From: Flavobacteriaceae bacterium UJ101
Lineage (GTDB): Bacteria > Bacteroidota > Bacteroidia > Flavobacteriales > UJ101
Length of the DNA stretch: 64,000 nucleotides
Reading direction: 5' to 3'
Assembly (NCBI GenBank): GCA_001880285.1
Contig: CP016269.1
Span: forward strand, 2,490,501-2,554,500
The stretch's first letter is position 1; the number at the start of each line of letters is the position of its first letter. The translations under genes were made by a program, and so were the position numbers. Under the pieces are notes generated by a model that was not told where the DNA came from, ran no database searches, and was given only the letters and a program-made list of their open reading frames with translations. This document shows, piece by piece, positions 51,186 through 61,870 of this stretch.

Positions 51186-51303
51186 AAAGCTACATGATTT
51201 CTATCACAAAGGTAAAATAAAAAATGGTATTAAACTGTTGAAAACAAAAGGGTTTTCGACAAGTTTTTAACAATTCTCATATAAATAAGAGATAAAAAAG
51301 TAT

Positions 51304-51311
51304 TATATTTG
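51304..51311 (+). promoter_or_regulatory. -7 box in front of the copper-module genes
   Basis: TATATTTG fits TAnnTTTG exactly but ends only 5 bases before the ATG at 51317, so the mRNA may be leaderless. The -33 element is not clear. Confidence 0.45.
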
Positions 51312-51316
51312 TTTTC

Positions 51317-51712
51317 ATGAATAAAATTTCTCGATGTAAAGGGTTATTATTTATACTAATAAGTATTTTATTAGTGTTTACTTTTTACAAGCCTATGGTT
51401 TTGAGTAATTTTTTAATTCATAGAGAATATATCATTAAAAATTTATGTGTTCAAAAAGATAATCAAATCGATTGTTATGGTAAATGTCATTTGAAGAAAA
51501 TGTTAAAAACAACACCACAAAATGATGATAACGTATTAAATGATTTGAAAAATATAGAACGCCTTTTTGAAATTAATGTTTTGATAGAAGATTTAATTAA
51601 TTTTAAAGAATTTGAATTAGGTGATGTTAAAATTTATAATTTAAATTATAAAGAGTATACTACACACCCTTTTTTAGAGGTAAAAACACCACCTCCCCAA
51701 ACTATTATATAA
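51317..51712 (+). CDS. Small membrane/exported Cys protein of copper-type loci
   Basis: 131 residues. One hydrophobic helix (about 9-24), then the conserved stretch HREYIIKNLCVQKDNQIDCYGKC with C44, C53 and C57, followed by a helical acidic region and a PPPQ tail. Small proteins with this 'LC.....-C.GKC.L' pattern occur beside TonB-dependent receptors in Bacteroidota, often in copper settings. Three cysteines near a membrane anchor could bind Cu(I). Function is inferred from context only. Starts the run that continues into the lipoprotein and receptor genes. Confidence 0.6.
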   Translation: MNKISRCKGLLFILISILLVFTFYKPMVLSNFLIHREYIIKNLCVQKDNQIDCYGKCHLKKMLKTTPQNDDNVLNDLKNIERLFEINVLIEDLINFKEFELGDVKIYNLNYKEYTTHPFLEVKTPPPQTII

Positions 51713-51942: not shown

Positions 51943-52839
51943 ATGAAATCATTTAAAATACTTAAAATGGCTCTATTGAGCTTTTTATCAGTGAGTTTAT
52001 TCGTTTCTTGTTCAGATGATGATAACAATTCTTCTCAAGTAACTGATGAATTTGAAGCACTTAATGTTACTACGTTTAAAACTATAACAGAAGGAAATTA
52101 TACGTTAGATTTTGCAACTAAATCAGGTGAATTAATTCAGGGATATAATGAAATTTATATTCGAGTGAAAGACAATAGAACATCTGAATATATTGATAAT
52201 GCTACAATTAATTGGGTTCCGACTATGCATATGACGATGATGGAACATCAAACTGCAAAGTCAGATGTCAAAAGAACAATCAATACAACAGCTGTATATA
52301 ATGGTTATATCATGTTTCAAATGGCAGAAACTACTGACCCAAAGCAAACATGGACCTTAAAAGTTGATTATACAATTGATGGAAATAATTATTCAGAAGA
52401 ATTTGATATTAGCGTTCCTGCTTCAGCAAGAAAAAGAGTTAATGTAATTACAGGTACAAATGATAAAAAATATTATGTAGCACTTGTAGAACCTAGTGAT
52501 CCTGTTGTGGGTGAAAATGAACTTACAGTGGCGGTTTTTATGCCAGAAAGTACAACAAGTTATCCTATTGTGGAGGATTATACACTATTAATAGACCCTA
52601 GAATGCCAGATCCAGGAATGGGGAATCATGGTTCTCCGAATAATATAGATCTAACTTATAATAGTACAACAGGTTTTTATCATGGAAAAGTAAATTTTAC
52701 TATGACAGGTTTATGGAATTTGAATTTTCAACTTGAAGATACTGATGGAAACATTGTGGCAGGAGAGGAGATTACTAATACAACGAATCCAGAAGGATCA
52801 GGTTATAGAAGTTCGCTTTATTTAGAAGTAGAGTTTTAA
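51943..52839 (+). CDS. Two-domain YtkA/FixH-like lipoprotein with Met/His clusters, putative periplasmic copper protein
   Basis: 298 residues. Lipoprotein signal with Cys23 (LFVSCSDDD). The mature part looks like two tandem beta-sandwich domains (about 40-160 and 165-298) of YtkA/FixH type. Each carries a Met/His cluster: M95-H-M-T-M-M-E-H102 in the first and M221-PDPG-M226-GN-H229 in the second. Such clusters bind Cu(I) or Cu(II) in periplasmic copper chaperones. It lies 110 bases before a copper-type TonB receptor, so passing copper on is a reasonable role. Metal binding is inferred, not shown. Confidence 0.7.
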   Translation: MKSFKILKMALLSFLSVSLFVSCSDDDNNSSQVTDEFEALNVTTFKTITEGNYTLDFATKSGELIQGYNEIYIRVKDNRTSEYIDNATINWVPTMHMTMMEHQTAKSDVKRTINTTAVYNGYIMFQMAETTDPKQTWTLKVDYTIDGNNYSEEFDISVPASARKRVNVITGTNDKKYYVALVEPSDPVVGENELTVAVFMPESTTSYPIVEDYTLLIDPRMPDPGMGNHGSPNNIDLTYNSTTGFYHGKVNFTMTGLWNLNFQLEDTDGNIVAGEEITNTTNPEGSGYRSSLYLEVEF

Positions 52840-52949: not shown

Positions 52950-54965
52950 ATGAACAAAAACCATAAACAGATGAAAAGACTGTTTTGTATAGTTTTTCTT
53001 TTAATAGGTATTGTGTTTACCTTCTCTCAAGAAAAAACAGATTCAATTACAGAGTTAGAGAGTGTTATGATTATAAGAGCTTTACCCAAAGAGCATCAAG
53101 CCTATAATAAATCATTAGCAACTTTAGATGAATATTTAAATGGGACACAAAATGTCTCTATGATAAAAAGAGGTGCTTATGCTTGGGAAGCATCAATGAA
53201 TGGGATGACTTCTGAACGAATCAATACAACGATAGATGGGATGCATATTTACGGAGCTTGTACTGATAAAATGGATCCGGTTACCTCTTATGTGGATATT
53301 TCAAATCTAGAGAAAATTGATTTGAATTCTGGACAAGGAGGTGCTCAATATGGGCATACTTTAGGTGGAGGAATAAATATGGGGCTGCGTAAAGGGAGTT
53401 TTAATGATATAGGATTACAATCTAAAATTGATTTAGGTTACGAAACGAATGGAGCAGGAAAAATAGGTGGTTTTGAAACCAATTATAGTACAAACAAATT
53501 TTATTTAAATATGGATGGAATTGTTCGTGATTATGAAGATTATAAAGCAGGAAATGGAGAAAAAGTAGAGTATACTCAATTCACAAAGTATAATGCTTCA
53601 ACAAATTTAGGTTATCTATTAAATGAAAAGCAAACTTTAGAAGGATTATTTATTTTAGATTATGCAAAAGATGTAGGATATCCTGCTTTACCTATGGATG
53701 TCTCAAAAGCAAGTGCCTTAATTGGTGGGATAACGTATACGTATAAAGATATTAGTGAAAGACTAAAAAAGTGGGAAACAAAAGTCTATTTAAATTCGAT
53801 TACACATGTTATGGATGATACAACTCGACCCATTGAAACATTGGCAATGCATATGGATATGCCCGGTTGGAGTGATACATATGGAATGTATTCTGAATTA
53901 CATGTTAAAGAAAACAAACATCATATTACAGCTAATTTTAATGCTTATTATAATAAATCATTAGCAGAAATGACTATGTATCCTGTTGATACAAATGAAG
54001 CTTTAATGTTTTTAGAAACATGGCCTGATGTACGAACGTTATATACAGGTTTCTTTGTAAAAGATGAATTTAATTTAAAGGATAATCAATCCAAGATCAT
54101 TTTAAATGCAAATATCGCGAATCAATCTAACCATATAAAAAGTAATGATGGACTGAATACGTTGAAAGTTTTTTATCCTACTATTTCAGATTCTCAAAAT
54201 CGATTTTTAATTAGTGGTTTTGCTCAATATAAAACATTGAATAGAAAAATAAATTGGAATACATCTATAGGTTATGGAGAAAGAGTACCTTCTGTAAGTG
54301 AAGGGTATGGGATTTACTTATTCAACAGTTTTGATGGTTATGAATATATTGGAAACCCCAATTTGAAAAAAGAAAAGTCATTAGAATATACGTTAGGGCT
54401 TAATTATTCAAAAAAGAAATATCAAATAGATTTTGAAACGAATGGTTTTTATATCAAAGATTATATTTTAGGTAGAACAGCTGATTTATTACCTATTATG
54501 GTGAATTCAAATGGAGTTAAAATGTATGAGAACTTAGATTATGCCTATATATTAAATACGAATGTGAAAATAAAGTATAAAATCACTTCTAAAATTGATT
54601 TTATTAATTCTTTTATGTACAGTTATGCCAATGACAATAATAAAAATCCATTACCATTAATCCGTCCTTTCACATGGCGATCTATTTTACAGTATAGCCA
54701 TAATCGATTTGAAGTTAGGAGTGATATGGAACTAGCCGCAAAACAATCACGGTATGATCGTGATTTTGGAGAAGATGAAACACCAGGATATGTAATTTTC
54801 AATCTTTCAGGTAAATATAGGTTTCATTTAGGTGAATATAGTTTGAAAACAAGCCTTGGAGTTGAAAATATTTTAGATAAAAATTATTCAACCTATTCAG
54901 ATTGGAATAATATTCCTCGAAAAGGGAGAAGCTTTTTTATCAATATAAGTTACATTATTAAGTAA
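52950..54965 (+). CDS. TonB-dependent receptor of the OprC/NosA copper type
   Basis: 671 residues (a start at 52971 is equally possible). Signal peptide (KRLFCIVFLLIGIVFTFSQ), plug domain from about 35, then a 22-strand-type barrel ending in an aromatic residue-rich last strand (SFFINISYIIK). The plug has IYGACTDKMDP with C104 and M108 (C-x3-M). In the barrel THVMDD gives H286-x-M288. OprC of Pseudomonas binds copper by C-x3-M and H-x-M about 180 residues apart, as I recall; here the gap is 182. NosA, the equivalent in Pseudomonas stutzeri, supplies copper for NosZ. Adjacent to the nos genes. Confidence 0.85.
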   Translation: MNKNHKQMKRLFCIVFLLIGIVFTFSQEKTDSITELESVMIIRALPKEHQAYNKSLATLDEYLNGTQNVSMIKRGAYAWEASMNGMTSERINTTIDGMHIYGACTDKMDPVTSYVDISNLEKIDLNSGQGGAQYGHTLGGGINMGLRKGSFNDIGLQSKIDLGYETNGAGKIGGFETNYSTNKFYLNMDGIVRDYEDYKAGNGEKVEYTQFTKYNASTNLGYLLNEKQTLEGLFILDYAKDVGYPALPMDVSKASALIGGITYTYKDISERLKKWETKVYLNSITHVMDDTTRPIETLAMHMDMPGWSDTYGMYSELHVKENKHHITANFNAYYNKSLAEMTMYPVDTNEALMFLETWPDVRTLYTGFFVKDEFNLKDNQSKIILNANIANQSNHIKSNDGLNTLKVFYPTISDSQNRFLISGFAQYKTLNRKINWNTSIGYGERVPSVSEGYGIYLFNSFDGYEYIGNPNLKKEKSLEYTLGLNYSKKKYQIDFETNGFYIKDYILGRTADLLPIMVNSNGVKMYENLDYAYILNTNVKIKYKITSKIDFINSFMYSYANDNNKNPLPLIRPFTWRSILQYSHNRFEVRSDMELAAKQSRYDRDFGEDETPGYVIFNLSGKYRFHLGEYSLKTSLGVENILDKNYSTYSDWNNIPRKGRSFFINISYIIK

Positions 54966-54969
54966 ATCC

Positions 54970-55392
54970 TTAAATTTTAATAATTCCATCAAGATTATCA
55001 ATTACATATTGAATGGTTTGTTCTTTGAACTTTTTTTCAAGCCCTCTTTTTAAGATAGAATATTTGTCATGTAAAGGACAAGGATTTCGATCAGAACAAT
55101 CATATAGATCAAGTACACATTTGTTGAAGATATCGTCACCTTCTAATACAATTACAATATCAAAAATTGTTTTTTGTAAATTTTCTTCATTCATATAAAA
55201 ACCACCTCCAGGTCCTTTAGAAGAAGAAACAATTTTTTTTTGAGATAGTTGTTGAAGTATTTTTTTTAAAAAAGGTTCAGGAATATCAAGAGCTTTAGCT
55301 ATGTCATTTGCTTTGAATCTCTTATGCCCGGTTCTTTCTTTTGCTATATAGAAAATGGCCCTTATACCATATTTAGTCATTCGTGTAAACAT
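54970..55392 (-). CDS. Rrf2-family regulator with three cysteines (NsrR/IscR-like)
   Basis: 140 residues. Winged helix at the N-terminus (MTKYGIRAIFYIAKE, then FKANDIAKALDIPEPFLKKILQQLS) and the Rrf2 motif SSSKGPGGGFYM (56-67). C92, C99 and C105 (C-x6-C-x5-C) sit where NsrR and IscR ligate an Fe-S cluster. An NO- or oxygen-sensitive repressor of the nos genes fits both sequence and place. Convergent with the receptor (4-base gap), divergent from the cytochrome gene, with a perfect inverted repeat between. Confidence 0.88.
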   Translation of the reverse strand: MFTRMTKYGIRAIFYIAKERTGHKRFKANDIAKALDIPEPFLKKILQQLSQKKIVSSSKGPGGGFYMNEENLQKTIFDIVIVLEGDDIFNKCVLDLYDCSDRNPCPLHDKYSILKRGLEKKFKEQTIQYVIDNLDGIIKI

Positions 55393-55404: not shown

Positions 55405-55420
55405 AATAATTTAAAAATAA

Positions 55421-55464
55421 ACAAGAATAAAAGATAAAAATATCTTTTATTCTTGTTATATTTG
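55421..55464 (+). promoter_or_regulatory. nos operator and promoter: perfect 16-bp inverted repeat plus -7 box
   Basis: ACAAGAATAAAAGATA (55421-55436), spacer AAAA, and its exact complement (55441-55456) are followed at once by TATATTTG (55457-55464), a perfect TAnnTTTG box. The centre AAGAT...ATCTT recalls the NsrR site core. The repeat fills the place of the -33 element, so bound Rrf2 would block polymerase. ATG of the cytochrome gene is at 55508. Confidence 0.75.
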
Positions 55465-55507: not shown

Positions 55508-55972
55508 ATGAAAAAAGTAATTTTAATACTTAGTGTATTAGCTTTCGTTGCCTGCGGAGGGGACAAAAAGGAAAGTAAAGAAAAAGAATCTTCTAAAACA
55601 GAAAAAGCAGAGAAGAAAACAGAAGGTGGAAGAAAAAAGAACAGTAAAGGAATAGGACCTGTTACTGAATTAAAACTTCCAGAAACAATTGATGAGAGTA
55701 TGGCTGCGGAAGGGAAAAAAGTTTTTGACGCAAAGTGTACAGCTTGTCATAAACCTGACAAAAAATATATTGGTCCAGCACCTAAGGGTGTTACAAAAAG
55801 AAGATCCCCAGAGTGGATAATGAATATGATTTTAAATCCAGAGGAAATGCTTGAAAAGGATCCTATTGCAAAACAACTTTATCGAGATAATAATGGAGCT
55901 GTAATGGCAAATCAAGATTTAACAAAAGAGGAAGCCAGACAAGTATTAGAGTATTTTAGAACACTTGAATAA
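55508..55972 (+). CDS. c-type cytochrome lipoprotein, probable electron donor to NosZ
   Basis: 154 residues. Lipoprotein signal with Cys16 (LAFVACGGD), a Lys/Glu-rich linker (18-48), then a class I cytochrome c domain with heme motif C77-T-A-C80-H81 and likely axial M134 in GAVMANQDL. Anchored on the periplasmic side of the inner or outer membrane. Clade II nos clusters usually carry one or two such cytochromes (NosC). First gene after the nos promoter, 109 bases before nosZ with no terminator between. Confidence 0.88.
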   Translation: MKKVILILSVLAFVACGGDKKESKEKESSKTEKAEKKTEGGRKKNSKGIGPVTELKLPETIDESMAAEGKKVFDAKCTACHKPDKKYIGPAPKGVTKRRSPEWIMNMILNPEEMLEKDPIAKQLYRDNNGAVMANQDLTKEEARQVLEYFRTLE

Positions 55973-56081: not shown

Positions 56082-58052
56082 ATGAAACAATTATTAGCTA
56101 AACTATTGGTACTTTCCACTACCGTCGCACTATTAGTAAGCTGTGGTAGTAAGGATAATGTTGCTCCTAGAGGGACAGATAATGTCGTCTCAGATGCAGC
56201 ATCAAAGACGTATGTAAAGCCTGGAGAATATGATGAGTTTTATGCATTTCTTTCAGGAGGATTTAGTGGGCAACTATCGGTATATGGATTACCTTCTGGT
56301 AGATTGCTAAAAGTGATACCAACATTTTCTGTTGATCCAGAAAAAGGATATGGATTTAACGAAGAGACCAAACCAATGCTAGAGACATCAGTAGGGTTTG
56401 TACCTTGGGATGATGCCCATCACCCTGAATTATCACAGACAAACGGTGAAACTGACGGACGATGGATTTTTATCAATGGAAATAATACACCTCGTATCGC
56501 TCGAATAGATTTAGGGACATTTGAAACAACAGAAATTATTGAAATTCCTAATAGTGGAGGTAATCATAGCTCGCCTTTTACAACAGAAAATACAGAGTAT
56601 GTTGTAGCAGGAACTCGTTTTTCTGTACCTATTCCTCAAGAAGATATTGCAATTTCTGAATACAAAGGGAAATTTAAAGGAGCTTTATCTTTTATTAGCG
56701 TAGATAAAGATTCTGGAGATATGGGACTAGCTTTTCAAGTTCTAATGCCTGGTTTTGATTATGACTTAGCCCATTCAGGAAAAGGGAAATCACATGGTTG
56801 GACTTTCTTTACCACTTATAATACTGAAGAAAGTAATACCTTGATGGAAGTAGGAGCTTCTCAAAATGATAAAGACTTTATAGCAGCCATTAATTGGAAA
56901 AAAGCAGAAGAATATATTGCGCAAGGAAAATTTAAAGAAGTTCCTGCAAATTATGTGAATAACGAATATAGTGATGAAACACATTCTGCTGTGACTAAAA
57001 GGTTAAATAAGGTAAAAGTGTTGGATCCGGTAGAGTGTCCAGGATTGGTTTATTTTTTACCAACTCCTAAATCACCTCATGGAGTTGATGTAGATCCATC
57101 GGGTGAATATATTGTTGGAAATGGTAAGTTATCAGCCGATTTAACAGTTCATTCTTTTACAAAAGTATTAGATGCCATTGAAAATAAGAAATTTGAAGGA
57201 GAAGCTTATGGAATTCCTGTTCTTAAAATGGAGGATATATTAGCAGGTATTGTAAAAGAACCAGGGTTAGGTCCTTTACACACTGAGTTTGATGGAAGAG
57301 GAAATGCTTATACGACTTTCTTTATTTCTTCTGAAGTAGTAAAATGGAAATTAGGAACTTGGGAAGTTATAGACAGACAACCAACCTATTATTCAGTAGG
57401 ACATTTAATGATTCCAGGAGGTGATAGTGCCAAACCAGATGGTAAATATTTAGTTGCGATGAATAAAATTACAAAAGATCGTTATTTACCAACAGGTCCT
57501 GAAATGAATCATTCAGCTCAATTATATGATATTTCGGGAGAGAAAATGAAGCTTTTATTAGATTTTCCAACAATTGGAGAACCTCATTATGCACAAGGGA
57601 TTGCAGCTAGTAAAATTAAATCAAAAAAGATTTATAAACTAGAGGAAAATAAACATCCTTATGTTGCGAAAACAGAAGCAGATGCGAAAGTAGTACGCGA
57701 AGGAAAAGATGTACATGTATATATGACTTCTATTCGTAGTCACTTTGCCCCGGATAATATTGAAGGGATAAAAGTAGGTGATAATGTCTATTTTCACGTA
57801 ACCAACTTAGAACAAGATTGGGATGTTCCTCATGGTTTTGCTGTTATGAAAGCAAGAAATGCTGAATTATTAATTATGCCTGGACAAACAGAAACACTCC
57901 TTTGGAGACCTCAAGAACCAGGTATTTATCCTATGTATTGTACGGATTTTTGTTCTGCATTACATCAAGAAATGCAAGGATATGTACGTGTTTCTCCTGC
58001 AGGGAGTAATACGGAATTGAAATGGTCAGTAGGAGAAGTAGACGAAGAATAA
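56082..58052 (+). CDS. nosZ: Nitrous-oxide reductase, clade II (Sec-type)
   Basis: 656 residues. Reduces N2O to N2. The signal has no twin arginine and ends in a lipobox L18-V-S-C21, so this is the Sec-dependent clade II form and probably lipid-anchored. CuZ ligands: H113, H114 (DDAHHPE), H162, H333 (SPHGVD), H400 (GPLHTEF), H441 and H502 (EPHYAQ). CuA ligands in the C-terminal cupredoxin domain: H584 (DVPHGF), C620, C624, H628 and M631. All are present. Spacing between successive His fits known NosZ except for a 20-odd residue insert typical of clade II. Confidence 0.97.
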   Translation: MKQLLAKLLVLSTTVALLVSCGSKDNVAPRGTDNVVSDAASKTYVKPGEYDEFYAFLSGGFSGQLSVYGLPSGRLLKVIPTFSVDPEKGYGFNEETKPMLETSVGFVPWDDAHHPELSQTNGETDGRWIFINGNNTPRIARIDLGTFETTEIIEIPNSGGNHSSPFTTENTEYVVAGTRFSVPIPQEDIAISEYKGKFKGALSFISVDKDSGDMGLAFQVLMPGFDYDLAHSGKGKSHGWTFFTTYNTEESNTLMEVGASQNDKDFIAAINWKKAEEYIAQGKFKEVPANYVNNEYSDETHSAVTKRLNKVKVLDPVECPGLVYFLPTPKSPHGVDVDPSGEYIVGNGKLSADLTVHSFTKVLDAIENKKFEGEAYGIPVLKMEDILAGIVKEPGLGPLHTEFDGRGNAYTTFFISSEVVKWKLGTWEVIDRQPTYYSVGHLMIPGGDSAKPDGKYLVAMNKITKDRYLPTGPEMNHSAQLYDISGEKMKLLLDFPTIGEPHYAQGIAASKIKSKKIYKLEENKHPYVAKTEADAKVVREGKDVHVYMTSIRSHFAPDNIEGIKVGDNVYFHVTNLEQDWDVPHGFAVMKARNAELLIMPGQTETLLWRPQEPGIYPMYCTDFCSALHQEMQGYVRVSPAGSNTELKWSVGEVDEE

Positions 58053-58159: not shown

Positions 58160-58735
58160 ATGAGAAAAGATAAAATAGTATTTATTGTAGGTGTTTTATT
58201 ATTATTAGGATTGTTTGTATTTCCTTTGTGGAATATAACATTAGAAGCACCACAATATCCCGATTCATTAGGAATGGATATTTGGATTACAAAAATTACC
58301 GATCATAATCCTAATGATATCAAAAATATCAATTTGATGAATCATTATGTAGGAATGGCTGATATACAATTGGATATGATTGAATTTACTATTTTTCCAA
58401 TCGTAATCAGTGCGATGATTGTTTTAGGTATAATCATAGGATTTACAGGAAACAAAAAACTTTATTTAACGTGGTTTATTGTCATGATTCTTTTAGGTAT
58501 TGCAGGAATGTATGATTTTTATTTATGGGAATATGAATATGGGCATAATTTAAATCCACATGCTGCTATAAAAATACCAGGACAAGCCTATCAACCTCCT
58601 TTGATTGGATCAAAAAGGATTCTTAATTTTAATGCTACGTCATTGCCTGCTATAGGAGCTTATTTGATGACTTTAGGATTGGTGTTAACTTGTATAGCTA
58701 CATTTTTACCCATTAAAAAGAAAATAGAAAAATGA
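58160..58735 (+). CDS. Four-helix membrane protein of Bacteroidota nos clusters, function unknown
   Basis: 191 residues with four membrane helices (about 7-25, 76-95, 103-121 and 164-184). Between helix 1 and 2 a periplasmic loop has MNHYVGMADI; between 3 and 4 lies HNLNPHAAIKIPGQAYQPPLIG. Two His and several Met residues face the periplasm. Its place between nosZ and nosL matches the membrane gene called nosB in some clade II clusters, but I cannot show homology. It could help copper insertion or electron transfer. Overlaps nosL by ATGA. Confidence 0.75.
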   Translation: MRKDKIVFIVGVLLLLGLFVFPLWNITLEAPQYPDSLGMDIWITKITDHNPNDIKNINLMNHYVGMADIQLDMIEFTIFPIVISAMIVLGIIIGFTGNKKLYLTWFIVMILLGIAGMYDFYLWEYEYGHNLNPHAAIKIPGQAYQPPLIGSKRILNFNATSLPAIGAYLMTLGLVLTCIATFLPIKKKIEK

Positions 58736-59157
58736 AAAGGATAATTTGGATCTTGATAATAAGTTGCGTGATATTATCATGCAATAAAAAGCCAAGAGAT
58801 ATAGAATATGGAAGTGATGAATGTTATTATTGTTCCATGAAAATTGTTGAAAAAAAATTTGGAGCTCAAATGGTGACAGAAAAAGGGAAGATACAAATGT
58901 ATGATTCTGCTGAATGTTTAATTAAAGATGTATTAAACCATCCGGATAAAAAATATTCATTTTTAAAAGCTACGAACTATTTAACCGATGAATGGATCGA
59001 TGCAGAGCATGCATACTTTTTAATTAGTAAAAATATTCCGAGTCCCATGGGGGCTAATTTATCAGCATATGATTCTAAAAAAGAAGTAGAGGATATGCAG
59101 AAAAAAAATGAAGGAGAAGTCTTTAACTGGAGTGAAATCAAAGTGTATTTTGAATAG
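58732..59157 (+). CDS. nosL: Copper chaperone NosL
   Basis: 141 residues. Lipoprotein signal with Cys17 (VILSCNKK). The NosL domain has C31-YY-C34-S-M36 (the C-x2-C-x-M metal motif), FGAQMVTEKGKIQMYDSAEC, DAEHAYFL and SPMGANLSAYDS. NosL delivers Cu(I) to apo-NosZ in the periplasm together with NosDFY. Start overlaps the previous gene as ATGA and its end overlaps nosD. Confidence 0.95.
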   Translation: MKRIIWILIISCVILSCNKKPRDIEYGSDECYYCSMKIVEKKFGAQMVTEKGKIQMYDSAECLIKDVLNHPDKKYSFLKATNYLTDEWIDAEHAYFLISKNIPSPMGANLSAYDSKKEVEDMQKKNEGEVFNWSEIKVYFE

Positions 59158-60397
59158 TCATAAGTTAATACTAATGGTAGGATATTTCTTTTTTTGTCTT
59201 TTTATTGAGGCAAAAACAATAGAGATTTGTCCTAACTGCAAAAATAAAGATGTTAAAAAGATTATTGAAAATGCCAATAGTTTTGACACTATTTTTATAA
59301 AAGTAGGAATTTACCCAACTGAAAATATAAAAATTAATAAACCAATTACTATTATAGGTGAACGAGGAGCTACTTTAGATGGAAAAGTGGAAAATGAAAT
59401 TTTTACCATTAAAGCCGATAGTGTATCGATTATAAATATGACGTTACAAAATGCTGGAAGAAGTAATTTAAAAGATTTAGCTGCAATTCACATTGAAAAA
59501 GGGAAGCATTTCCTAATCAAAGATAATTTTATTTATGATAACTATTTTGGAATTATAGTAAATAAAGGGAAAAAAGGTTTTATAGAAAATAATGTAGTAC
59601 GAGGATATGGAGGAGAACATGAGTTTAGTATTGGAAATGCTATTCATTTATGGTATTGTAAAGATATAGTCATAAGAAATAATGAAGTGAGTTTTCATCG
59701 TGATGGTATTTATTTTGAATTTGTAGATCATGCGATTATAGAAGAAAATAACAGTCATGATAACATTCGTTATGGTTTACATTTTATGTTTTCGAACCAT
59801 GATACTTATTCTCATAATAGATTTACAAAAAATGGAGCAGGAGTAGCAGTCATGTTTTCAAAATTTATCAAAATGTACTACAATACATTTGAACATAATT
59901 GGGGCTCGAGTTCGTACGGTTTACTGCTAAAAGAAATCAATGATAGTGAAATTAAAAACAATATTTTCTTTGAAAATACAACAGGAATTCAAACAGAAGG
60001 AGCTAATCGGATTAGTTATATAGAAAATACATTTGAAAAAAATGGGTTTGCTATGCGAGTGCGAGGAGCTAGTATAGATAACAAAATCATTCGAAATAAT
60101 TTTATATCCAATACATTTGATATGGCTTTTAATGGACGATTTGAAAGCAATAGTATTAACGGTAATTATTGGAGTGACTATACAGGTTATGATTTAAATC
60201 GTGATGGAATAGGCGATATCCCTTTTCATCCTGTTAAGTTATTTAGTTTTGTAACAGGAGAAGTACCCGAATCCATTATATTGATACGAAGTTTATTTGT
60301 TGATATTTTAAATTATTCTGAAAAAGTAGCACCGGTTATTACACCTAAAGAAGTAGCCGATCATAACCCTTCAATGATGAAGATTCTATGGAAATAA
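59108..60397 (+). CDS. nosD: NosD, right-handed beta-helix maturation protein
   Basis: 429 residues if the ATG at 59108 is used, which overlaps nosL by 50 bases. A TTG at 59150 or ATG at 59174 would give tighter signal peptides (hydrophobic part LILMVGYFFFCLF). The body is a CASH/NosD beta-helix: repeated short strands such as FIYDNYFGIIVNKGKKGFIENN, GIYFEFVDHAIIEENN and GLHFMFSNHDTYSHNRF. The C-terminal NGNYWSDYTGYDLNRDGIGD is the NosD signature. With NosF and NosY it drives copper-cluster assembly in NosZ. ATG overlap with nosF of 10 bases. Confidence 0.93.
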   Translation: MKEKSLTGVKSKCILNSHKLILMVGYFFFCLFIEAKTIEICPNCKNKDVKKIIENANSFDTIFIKVGIYPTENIKINKPITIIGERGATLDGKVENEIFTIKADSVSIINMTLQNAGRSNLKDLAAIHIEKGKHFLIKDNFIYDNYFGIIVNKGKKGFIENNVVRGYGGEHEFSIGNAIHLWYCKDIVIRNNEVSFHRDGIYFEFVDHAIIEENNSHDNIRYGLHFMFSNHDTYSHNRFTKNGAGVAVMFSKFIKMYYNTFEHNWGSSSYGLLLKEINDSEIKNNIFFENTTGIQTEGANRISYIENTFEKNGFAMRVRGASIDNKIIRNNFISNTFDMAFNGRFESNSINGNYWSDYTGYDLNRDGIGDIPFHPVKLFSFVTGEVPESIILIRSLFVDILNYSEKVAPVITPKEVADHNPSMMKILWK

Positions 60398-61098
60398 TAA
60401 TTGAAAAATTACAAAAAAAATACGCTAAGAAAGAAGTCTTAAAAGATATTAATATTACGATTGATAATAAAGGTGTCTACGCTATATTAGGACCTAATGG
60501 GTCGGGGAAAACAACATTATTGAAGAGTATTTTAGGTTTAGTAACGCCACAAAAAGGAAATATTACCTTAAATCAAAAGACCATTTTAAATGATTGGAAA
60601 TATCGTAAACACGTAGCGTATTTGCCACAAATAGCCCACTTTCCTGAGCAGTTGAAAGTAAGTGAATTATTTAAATTGATAGAATCACTTCGTAAAGAAA
60701 AAGGCATTCATTTAGATACATTAATTGAGAAGTTTGAAATGCAATCTTTTTTAAATCAAAGAGTGAATACACTTTCAGGAGGGATGAAACAAAAAGTGAA
60801 TATTGTTTCAGGTTTAATGTTTGAGACCCCTATTATCATTTTAGATGAACCAACAACAGGTTTAGATCCTTTAACTGTTTCTACTTTGAAAGAAATCATT
60901 TTTGAAGAGAAGAAAAAAGGGAAGACCATTCTTTTAACCTCTCATATCATGAGTTTTGTGGAAGAAGTTTCAGATGAATTAATTTTTTTGTTAGAAGGGA
61001 AAGTTCATGTATATTCTAATATTAGTCAGTTGATTAAACAATATCAAAAAGAAAATTTAGAACAAACCTTAGCTCAAATACTAAAAGATTATGAATAA
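60388..61098 (+). CDS. nosF: NosF, ABC transporter ATPase
   Basis: 236 residues. Walker A GPNGSGKTT (35-43), signature LSGGMKQ, Walker B IIILDEPTTGLD, H-loop LLTSHIMS. It powers NosY in the NosDFY complex, which hands copper or sulfur to NosZ assembly in the periplasm. Overlaps nosD by 10 and nosY by 8 bases, so expression is coupled. Confidence 0.94.
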   Translation: MEIIIEKLQKKYAKKEVLKDINITIDNKGVYAILGPNGSGKTTLLKSILGLVTPQKGNITLNQKTILNDWKYRKHVAYLPQIAHFPEQLKVSELFKLIESLRKEKGIHLDTLIEKFEMQSFLNQRVNTLSGGMKQKVNIVSGLMFETPIIILDEPTTGLDPLTVSTLKEIIFEEKKKGKTILLTSHIMSFVEEVSDELIFLLEGKVHVYSNISQLIKQYQKENLEQTLAQILKDYE

Positions 61099-61870
61099 AA
61101 TAATACAATATAGCCTTAGCGACTTACTAAAAAGTAAATGGATTATTCTGTATACACTGTTTTATTTTTTATTCAGTTATACTGTTTTAAGTTTTGGGAG
61201 TACACCTTCAAAAGGCTTATTAAGTATGATGAATGTGGTAGTTGTTTTAACACCTTTGATTAGTATTTTATTAAGTGCTATTTATATTACAAATTCTCGT
61301 GAATTTATTACACTATTGCTTTCACAGCCCTTGAAAAGAATCCATATATTTTTAGGGCTGTATATAAGTCTTTGTTTGTCACAATGTCTATCTTTAACGA
61401 TTGGCTTGGGAGTACCTGTTCTACTTACACAATTAACAGATGATTATGGAAGTGATTTTGTGTGGTTATTATTGAATAGCTTTTTTCTAACAATTATTTT
61501 TACAGGAATTGGTTATTATAGCGTATTGGCAACAAAGAATAAAGTAACAGCTTTAGGAATATGTATTTTTGTATGGTTGTTTTTCGCCATAGTTTATGAT
61601 GGTATTTTTATGTTTTTATTATATGAATTTCGTGATTACCCATTAGAATATCCCGCCTTGACTGCCTTGATTTTTAATCCAATTGATTTATCCAGAACCT
61701 CTATTTTATTACAATTAGAGATCTCAGCATTACTAGGTTATACAGGAGCTGTTTTCAAAAAATTCTTTGATTCCAACTTAGGGAATTTAATAAGTATATT
61801 GGTAATGATGCTTTGGTCGGTTCTCCCTTTGATTTTAATTTTGTTAAAAATCCGAAAAAAAGATTTTTAG
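61091..61870 (+). CDS. nosY: NosY, ABC transporter permease
   Basis: 259 residues with six membrane helices (first at about 15-33, last at about 233-253). SNSREFITLLLSQPLKRIHIF-like region (about 66-85) is the typical NosY coupling segment with ATPase contact. Partner of NosF. Last gene of the nos run; no clear terminator hairpin before the convergent gene 60 bases on. Confidence 0.92.
   Translation: MNKIIQYSLSDLLKSKWIILYTLFYFLFSYTVLSFGSTPSKGLLSMMNVVVVLTPLISILLSAIYITNSREFITLLLSQPLKRIHIFLGLYISLCLSQCLSLTIGLGVPVLLTQLTDDYGSDFVWLLLNSFFLTIIFTGIGYYSVLATKNKVTALGICIFVWLFFAIVYDGIFMFLLYEFRDYPLEYPALTALIFNPIDLSRTSILLQLEISALLGYTGAVFKKFFDSNLGNLISILVMMLWSVLPLILILLKIRKKDF

Follow-up and report, generated by a model that had tools for sequence, protein, structure and literature searches.

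A conserved 26-bp core within an inverted repeat between divergent rrf2 and nos genes is a predicted operator for a clade of Rrf2 regulators in Bacteroidota

We analysed a 64-kb window (the whole stretch of 64,000 nucleotides) of the Flavobacteriaceae bacterium UJ101 genome, in which a perfect inverted repeat is flanked by rrf2 (54970–55392, reverse strand) and the divergent nosC-nosZ-nosL-nosD-nosF-nosY genes (Table 1). The inner 26 bp of this repeat are a conserved operator for the clade of Rrf2 regulators encoded next to it, with binding by the regulator predicted, and this operator very likely switches the nos genes on and off. Reading binding, repression, Fe-S content and signal from sequence, we consider it probable that an autoregulating Rrf2 repressor acts on the 26-bp core of nos/rrf2 and would be relieved by nitric oxide (NO). 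Bacteria with clade II NosZ, among which Bacteroidota are numerous, form an important biological sink for N2O; to our knowledge the control of their nos genes is largely unknown. A defined operator, together with its regulator and a predicted regulon, allows the trigger of N2O consumption to be tested directly.

Table 1. Features of the window discussed in the text, in order of position.
Feature	Coordinates	Strand	Basis or detail
Second candidate operator	51284..51309		AATAAGAGATAAAAAAGTATTATATT; 3 mismatches, PWM 14.1; overlaps -7 box TATATTTG at 51304-51311
Small Cys-containing membrane-anchored protein	51317..51712	+	No family match; first gene of predicted co-regulated operon
Lipoprotein with YtkA-like domain	51943..52839	+	PF13115
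TonB-dependent receptor	52950..54965	+	PF00593, PF07715; convergent with rrf2
Rrf2-family regulator, 140 aa	54970..55392	-	C92-X6-C99-X5-C105-P-L-H108; Lys7 at NsrR Asp8 position
Perfect inverted repeat (full candidate operator)	55420..55457		Arms 55420-55436 and 55441-55457, 17 nt each, spacer AAAA
Conserved candidate Rrf2 operator core, 26 bp	55426..55451		AATAAAAGATAAAAATATCTTTTATT; PWM 32.6 of 37.1
Candidate nos -7 box	55457..55464	+	TATATTTG (TAnnTTTG); 1-nt overlap with repeat; TAnnTTTG enriched beside relatives' sites
nosC, lipoprotein-like c-type cytochrome	55508..55972	+	First nos operon gene
nosZ, Sec-dependent (clade II) nitrous-oxide reductase	56082..58052	+	TIGR04246, 960.9 bits (cut-off 625)
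Conserved gene between nosZ and nosL	58160..58735	+	No Pfam or NCBIfam match
nosL	58732..59157	+	PF05573
nosD	59108..60397	+	TIGR04247
nosF (ABC ATPase)	60388..61098	+	Profile match and context
nosY (permease)	61091..61870	+	Position and homologues in nos clusters

A repeat search recovered the sequence AACAAGAATAAAAGATA-AAAA-TATCTTTTATTCTTGTT, whose arms are 100% complementary and stand 4 nt apart; of all perfect inverted repeats with a spacer of 0–10 in the window, this one is the longest. The initial annotation had described 16-bp arms starting at 55421, which is right as to the perfect pairing and the 4-nt spacer and one pair short as to the arms, which are 17 nt long and start at 55420. 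It had also called such a repeat unlikely by chance at this spot, and we agree: base composition predicts 4.7e-4 such repeats per window and 8.5e-7 in this 115-bp intergenic region, under a null that is crude since terminators form hairpins too. This repeat is set apart from terminator hairpins by its location between divergent genes and by having no T-run. Its outer AACAAG/CTTGTT (55420–55425 and 55452–55457) adds 6 bp of symmetry per side beyond the conserved core; these outer 6 bp are not conserved, and outward extensions of the symmetry by at least 6 occur at only 2 of 108 sites.

The repeat is placed where a regulator could act on transcription. Its right arm ends at 55457, the base with which TATATTTG starts. 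Since that octamer conforms to TAnnTTTG, the -7 box of Bacteroidota, the repeat does touch the nos -7 box as had been claimed; measured from the end of the 26-bp core, the box begins 5 nt further on. The accompanying claim that the repeat covers position -33 in each of the two divergent promoters is fair by position for nos, while its rrf2 half depends on weaker boxes, the only ones seen at the rrf2 promoter, where no strict TAnnTTTG was found. Because the operator overlaps the -33 region, repression is the predicted effect, and because it lies between divergent genes, autoregulation is predicted as well.

Other families of the order have the same inner sequence in front of homologous rrf2 genes, just 5' of a -7 box. 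Its consensus is AATAAAAGAY-N6-RTCTTTTATT, in which each half-site (AATAAAAGAY) presents AAGAY toward the dyad and 6 nt separate AAGAY from RTCTT. With at most 1 mismatch, this core is present in 50 of 398 Flavobacteriales genomes, and a homologue of the window Rrf2 (P0001) is encoded in 46 of those 50, compared by hand with 147 of the 398 overall, in order-wide counts that ignore shared ancestry. When 29 of the sites were inspected, 26 lay at promoters of rrf2, qNor, NorC, NirK, Ric, nosC or azurin genes (in the example loci NorC was identified as a cytochrome c with adjoining COX1-family NorB and NirK), one further site preceded a small Cys protein related to window ORF 51317, and two (L096 and L120) fitted neither description. 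The suggestion in the initial annotation of an NO regulon is supported in relatives, where genes for NO reductase, NirK, Ric and azurin, as well as nos and rrf2, have the operator 5' of them, and its assignment of the repeat to the adjacent, autoregulating Rrf2 gains support from the presence of the same operator at relatives' rrf2 promoters, as a prediction from sites. A loose search for AAGATA-N4-TATCTT with 2 mismatches returned background (618 matches vs 926 in the control), and a negative control with 4-nt inner spacing returned only 3-mismatch background matches and did not recover the window site.

With NosZ as query we collected 80 named nos loci, nearly all from Bacteroidota, of which 75 could be judged; a divergent Rrf2 gene lies within 800 bp in 33 of these, and a recognisable divergent rrf2 is missing from the other 42. 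The core ARGAY-N6-RTCYT occurs in 23 of the 33 rrf2/nos intergenic regions, where shuffles give an expectation of 0.10, and in the upstream regions of 11 of the remaining 42 loci, where they give 0.15. TAnnTTTG boxes follow the sites (3', within 70 nt) in 63 cases compared with 11.3 in shuffles, mostly 11–14 nt past the site end, and because this is far above shuffles we place the operator sites on promoters. The product of the gene between nosZ and nosL is 46–72% identical across nos clusters.

Within the 3.07-Mb UJ101 genome, the window core is the only exact match to AATAAAAGAY-N6-RTCTTTTATT, and at a weight-matrix (PWM) score of 32.6 out of 37.1 it stands beside 3 Mb of random sequence with no site of 20 or more. 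When sites with up to 3 mismatches are ranked by weight matrix, it is followed by the second candidate operator of Table 1 and by a site at 2379527–2379552 (PWM 13.7), about 27 nt upstream of norC, which is followed by norB and nirK. Random sequence of 3 Mb yields about 4 sites at a PWM of at least 14, so that UJ101 sites scoring 13–14 fall within background, and three sites at unrelated places in the genome score 13.0–13.6; because score alone is within random expectation, the case for these two next-best sites is one of position and conservation. The same operator stands 5' of ORF 51317 homologues at five loci (L079, L122, L163, L190 and L200). On these grounds we predict a regulon of nos/rrf2, norC-norB-nirK and the operon of the Cys protein, YtkA-like lipoprotein and TonB receptor. 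A search of the genome for the same repeat, with norB among the hoped-for targets, had been proposed, and the site 5' of norC-norB-nirK is the match.

Other searches of the UJ101 genome returned background, both for 3-mismatch sites as a class (15 vs 22 in the control) and for 1-mismatch short cores (74 vs 83); we retained none of these sites except where position and conservation spoke for it. Sites near a peroxiredoxin gene (1084124), near fdhD (2638379) and inside coding sequence (1155245 and 1097969) were judged to be chance matches. The genome's own qNor and ric genes have no Rrf2 site, and hmp is not among the targets, Hmp-like matches in the genome being weak only. The qNor/cupin operon (L124:4383; G000:C1 near 243000) is preceded by a Crp/Fnr-type palindrome, TATGACATATGTCATA, and lacks an Rrf2 site. 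Homologues of ORF 51317 are conserved near nos and, in several relatives, are preceded by the Rrf2-type operator. By analogy with NosA/OprC, we would guess that the TonB receptor takes up copper.

We propose that an Rrf2 dimer carrying an Fe-S cluster would bind AATAAAAGAY-N6-RTCTTTTATT and, once bound, would block RNA polymerase at nos, where it would cover the -33 region and abut the -7 box, and would also limit expression of its own gene. Damage to the cluster by NO, or its oxidative loss, would release the protein and allow transcription of nosC-nosZ-nosLDFY and rrf2, and norC-norB-nirK and the Cys-protein/YtkA/TonB operon are probably under the same regulator. NO or a related signal is favoured because the predicted regulon consists of NO, nitrite and N2O genes; a regulon of this kind suggests NO, yet nitrite, redox state or oxygen would fit too. 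The proposal also has against it that qNor and ric of this genome have no site and that 42 of the 75 nos loci show no recognisable divergent rrf2.

The regulator itself belongs to the Rrf2 superfamily (PF02082, 83.1 bits, cut-off 30; TIGR00738, 86.9 bits, cut-off 73.3), and its AlphaFold model (pLDDT 92.6) has the winged-helix fold with a dimerisation helix; the top PDB matches are RsrR, NsrR, CymR and IscR, all of them remote at about 17–23% identity. As noted at the outset, the gene is divergent to the nos genes and encodes exactly three cysteines (92, 99 and 105). Of 79 homologues, at least 78 retain each of these residues and H108 (78 for the His), and an Fe-S cluster is probably held by Cys92, Cys99 and Cys105, with His108 a probable further ligand. 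The protein falls far below the equivalog cut-offs for NsrR (NF008240, 32.4 bits, cut-off 182), IscR (TIGR02010, 43 bits, cut-off 207.55) and RirA (NF008886, 54.5 bits, cut-off 193). In ScNsrR the fourth cluster ligand is Asp8 from the other subunit (PMC5411485), and at the aligned position, taken from the offset of the 5n07 match, the window protein has Lys7.

These ligands bear on the reading that the operator does belong to Rrf2 and the regulator responds to general Fe-S or iron/redox status, in the manner of IscR or RsrR, with the conditions for nos and nor expression coinciding with those of cluster loss. The three cysteines followed by an invariant His three residues past the third match the ligand pattern of E. 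coli IscR, which includes C104 and H107 (PMC5411485), H108 corresponding to IscR His107; Lys in place of Asp8 points the same way, as do the RsrR chains, which are the best PDB sequence and fold matches. Against this, those matches are remote, and the targets inspected are N-oxide genes with no isc or suf gene among them, and we regard general Fe-S or redox sensing as unlikely beside relief by NO.

Residue 7 divides the clade. It is Lys in 27, Gln in 3, Arg in 3 and Glu in 1 of the nos-divergent Rrf2 proteins (33 of 34 basic or Gln), and Glu in 34 of 43 others, Glu being the residue of most Rrf2 proteins linked to nor, nirK or ric; some of the others with Lys7 are nos-linked too (L095, L161), and the window Rrf2 carries Lys7 even though a tree, itself poorly resolved, puts it outside the main nos clade. 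This split may reflect ancestry or function. A more speculative possibility, which we hold with little confidence, is that a distinct Bacteroidota Rrf2 clade with its own operator is a denitrification master regulator whose nos-dedicated members have changed sensor chemistry: with a basic residue or Gln replacing an acidic one at the ligand that NO displaces in NsrR, the signal or threshold that governs N2O reduction would differ from that for NO reduction.

Many nos promoters (29 of the 75) contain the palindrome TATGAY-N4-RTCATA, of Crp/Fnr type, and Crp-type proteins are encoded in the UJ101 genome, so the repeat could in principle be bound by a Crp/Fnr activator or some other regulator, with Rrf2 a bystander. 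We find this very improbable, as the Crp/Fnr-type site is a separate adjoining motif at a fixed position of its own, and the Rrf2-type core tracks Rrf2 genes. Both motifs occur together at 23 nos loci, and at 21 of these the centre of the Crp/Fnr-type site follows that of the Rrf2 core by about 19 bp; in all 21, the distance from the Crp/Fnr centre to the start of the -7 box is exactly 29 bp, placing that site near -41. The window nos promoter has no Crp/Fnr-type site (the best match has 3 mismatches, the same as in shuffles), so its core promoter carries the Rrf2 operator alone. The rigid composite of Rrf2 core, Crp/Fnr-type site and TAnnTTTG is seen in the nos promoters of L134, L166, L169, L173, L186, L190, L203 and others; across 398 genomes the composite Rrf2 and Crp/Fnr element with at most 1 mismatch was no more frequent than in the control, and the 6 exact matches are the informative ones. 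Both this rigid Rrf2–Crp/Fnr–promoter spacing and the split between basic residues and Glu permit specific and cheap experiments.

That the repeat acts instead as an RNA hairpin in a leader transcript (a terminator, attenuator or stability element) is scarcely credible: the predicted fold of the strand has an energy of -20.3 kcal/mol (z -7.3), but folding is expected of any long perfect repeat, there is no T-run, the nos transcript would not include the repeat, which precedes the nos -7 box, and we rejected a hairpin or terminator since relatives conserve the 26-bp sequence (108 distinct sites) and not its pairing, most having 8–11 pairs out of 13 and lacking any outward extension.

Returning to an Rrf2 repressor relieved by NO, related cases appear in the accessible parts of two papers, where Rrf2 control of clade II nos is suggested for Melioribacter roseus (Mros1101; PMC3534657) and Rrf2 genes are recorded in clade II nos scaffolds from sediment (PMC6264515); in these, as in the window, rrf2 adjoins nos genes of clade II, and those parts give no operator, regulon or promoter architecture. 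The association of Rrf2 and nos genes was known before, and our search of literature open without subscription found no operator, regulon or promoter grammar for this Rrf2 clade. RsrR of Streptomyces venezuelae, a redox-sensing [2Fe-2S] Rrf2 regulator, is the best PDB sequence match and the best fold match by E-value, but shares about 17% identity, aligns poorly in the Cys region and has other targets. IscR resembles the window protein in its Rrf2 fold, three Cys and His three residues past the last, and differs in equivalog score (43 vs a cut-off of 207.6) and in that no isc or suf gene is among the targets inspected. NsrR shares the Rrf2 fold, three Cys, a palindromic promoter operator and a regulon made up of NO and nitrite genes, at times with nos genes as well, published regulons including norB, nirK, dnrN/ric and once nos (PMC1274295); for the window protein, a regulon of NO detoxification and denitrification is predicted from sites only. 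The resemblance of its AAGAT/ATCTT centre to NsrR sites, claimed in the initial annotation, does not hold, as AATAAAAGAY-N6-RTCTTTTATT differs in sequence and spacing from the published gATGyAT-N5-ATrCATc (PMC1274295). The cysteines are likewise spaced C-X5-C-X5-C in ScNsrR and C-X6-C-X5-C, with His108, in the window, where Lys7 replaces the ligand Asp8 and the NsrR score is 32.4 against a cut-off of 182. Because equivalog score, operator motif and fourth ligand all differ, the window regulator is not NsrR by motif, score or ligand, and by its targets it is a predicted NsrR-type repressor of an NO regulon.
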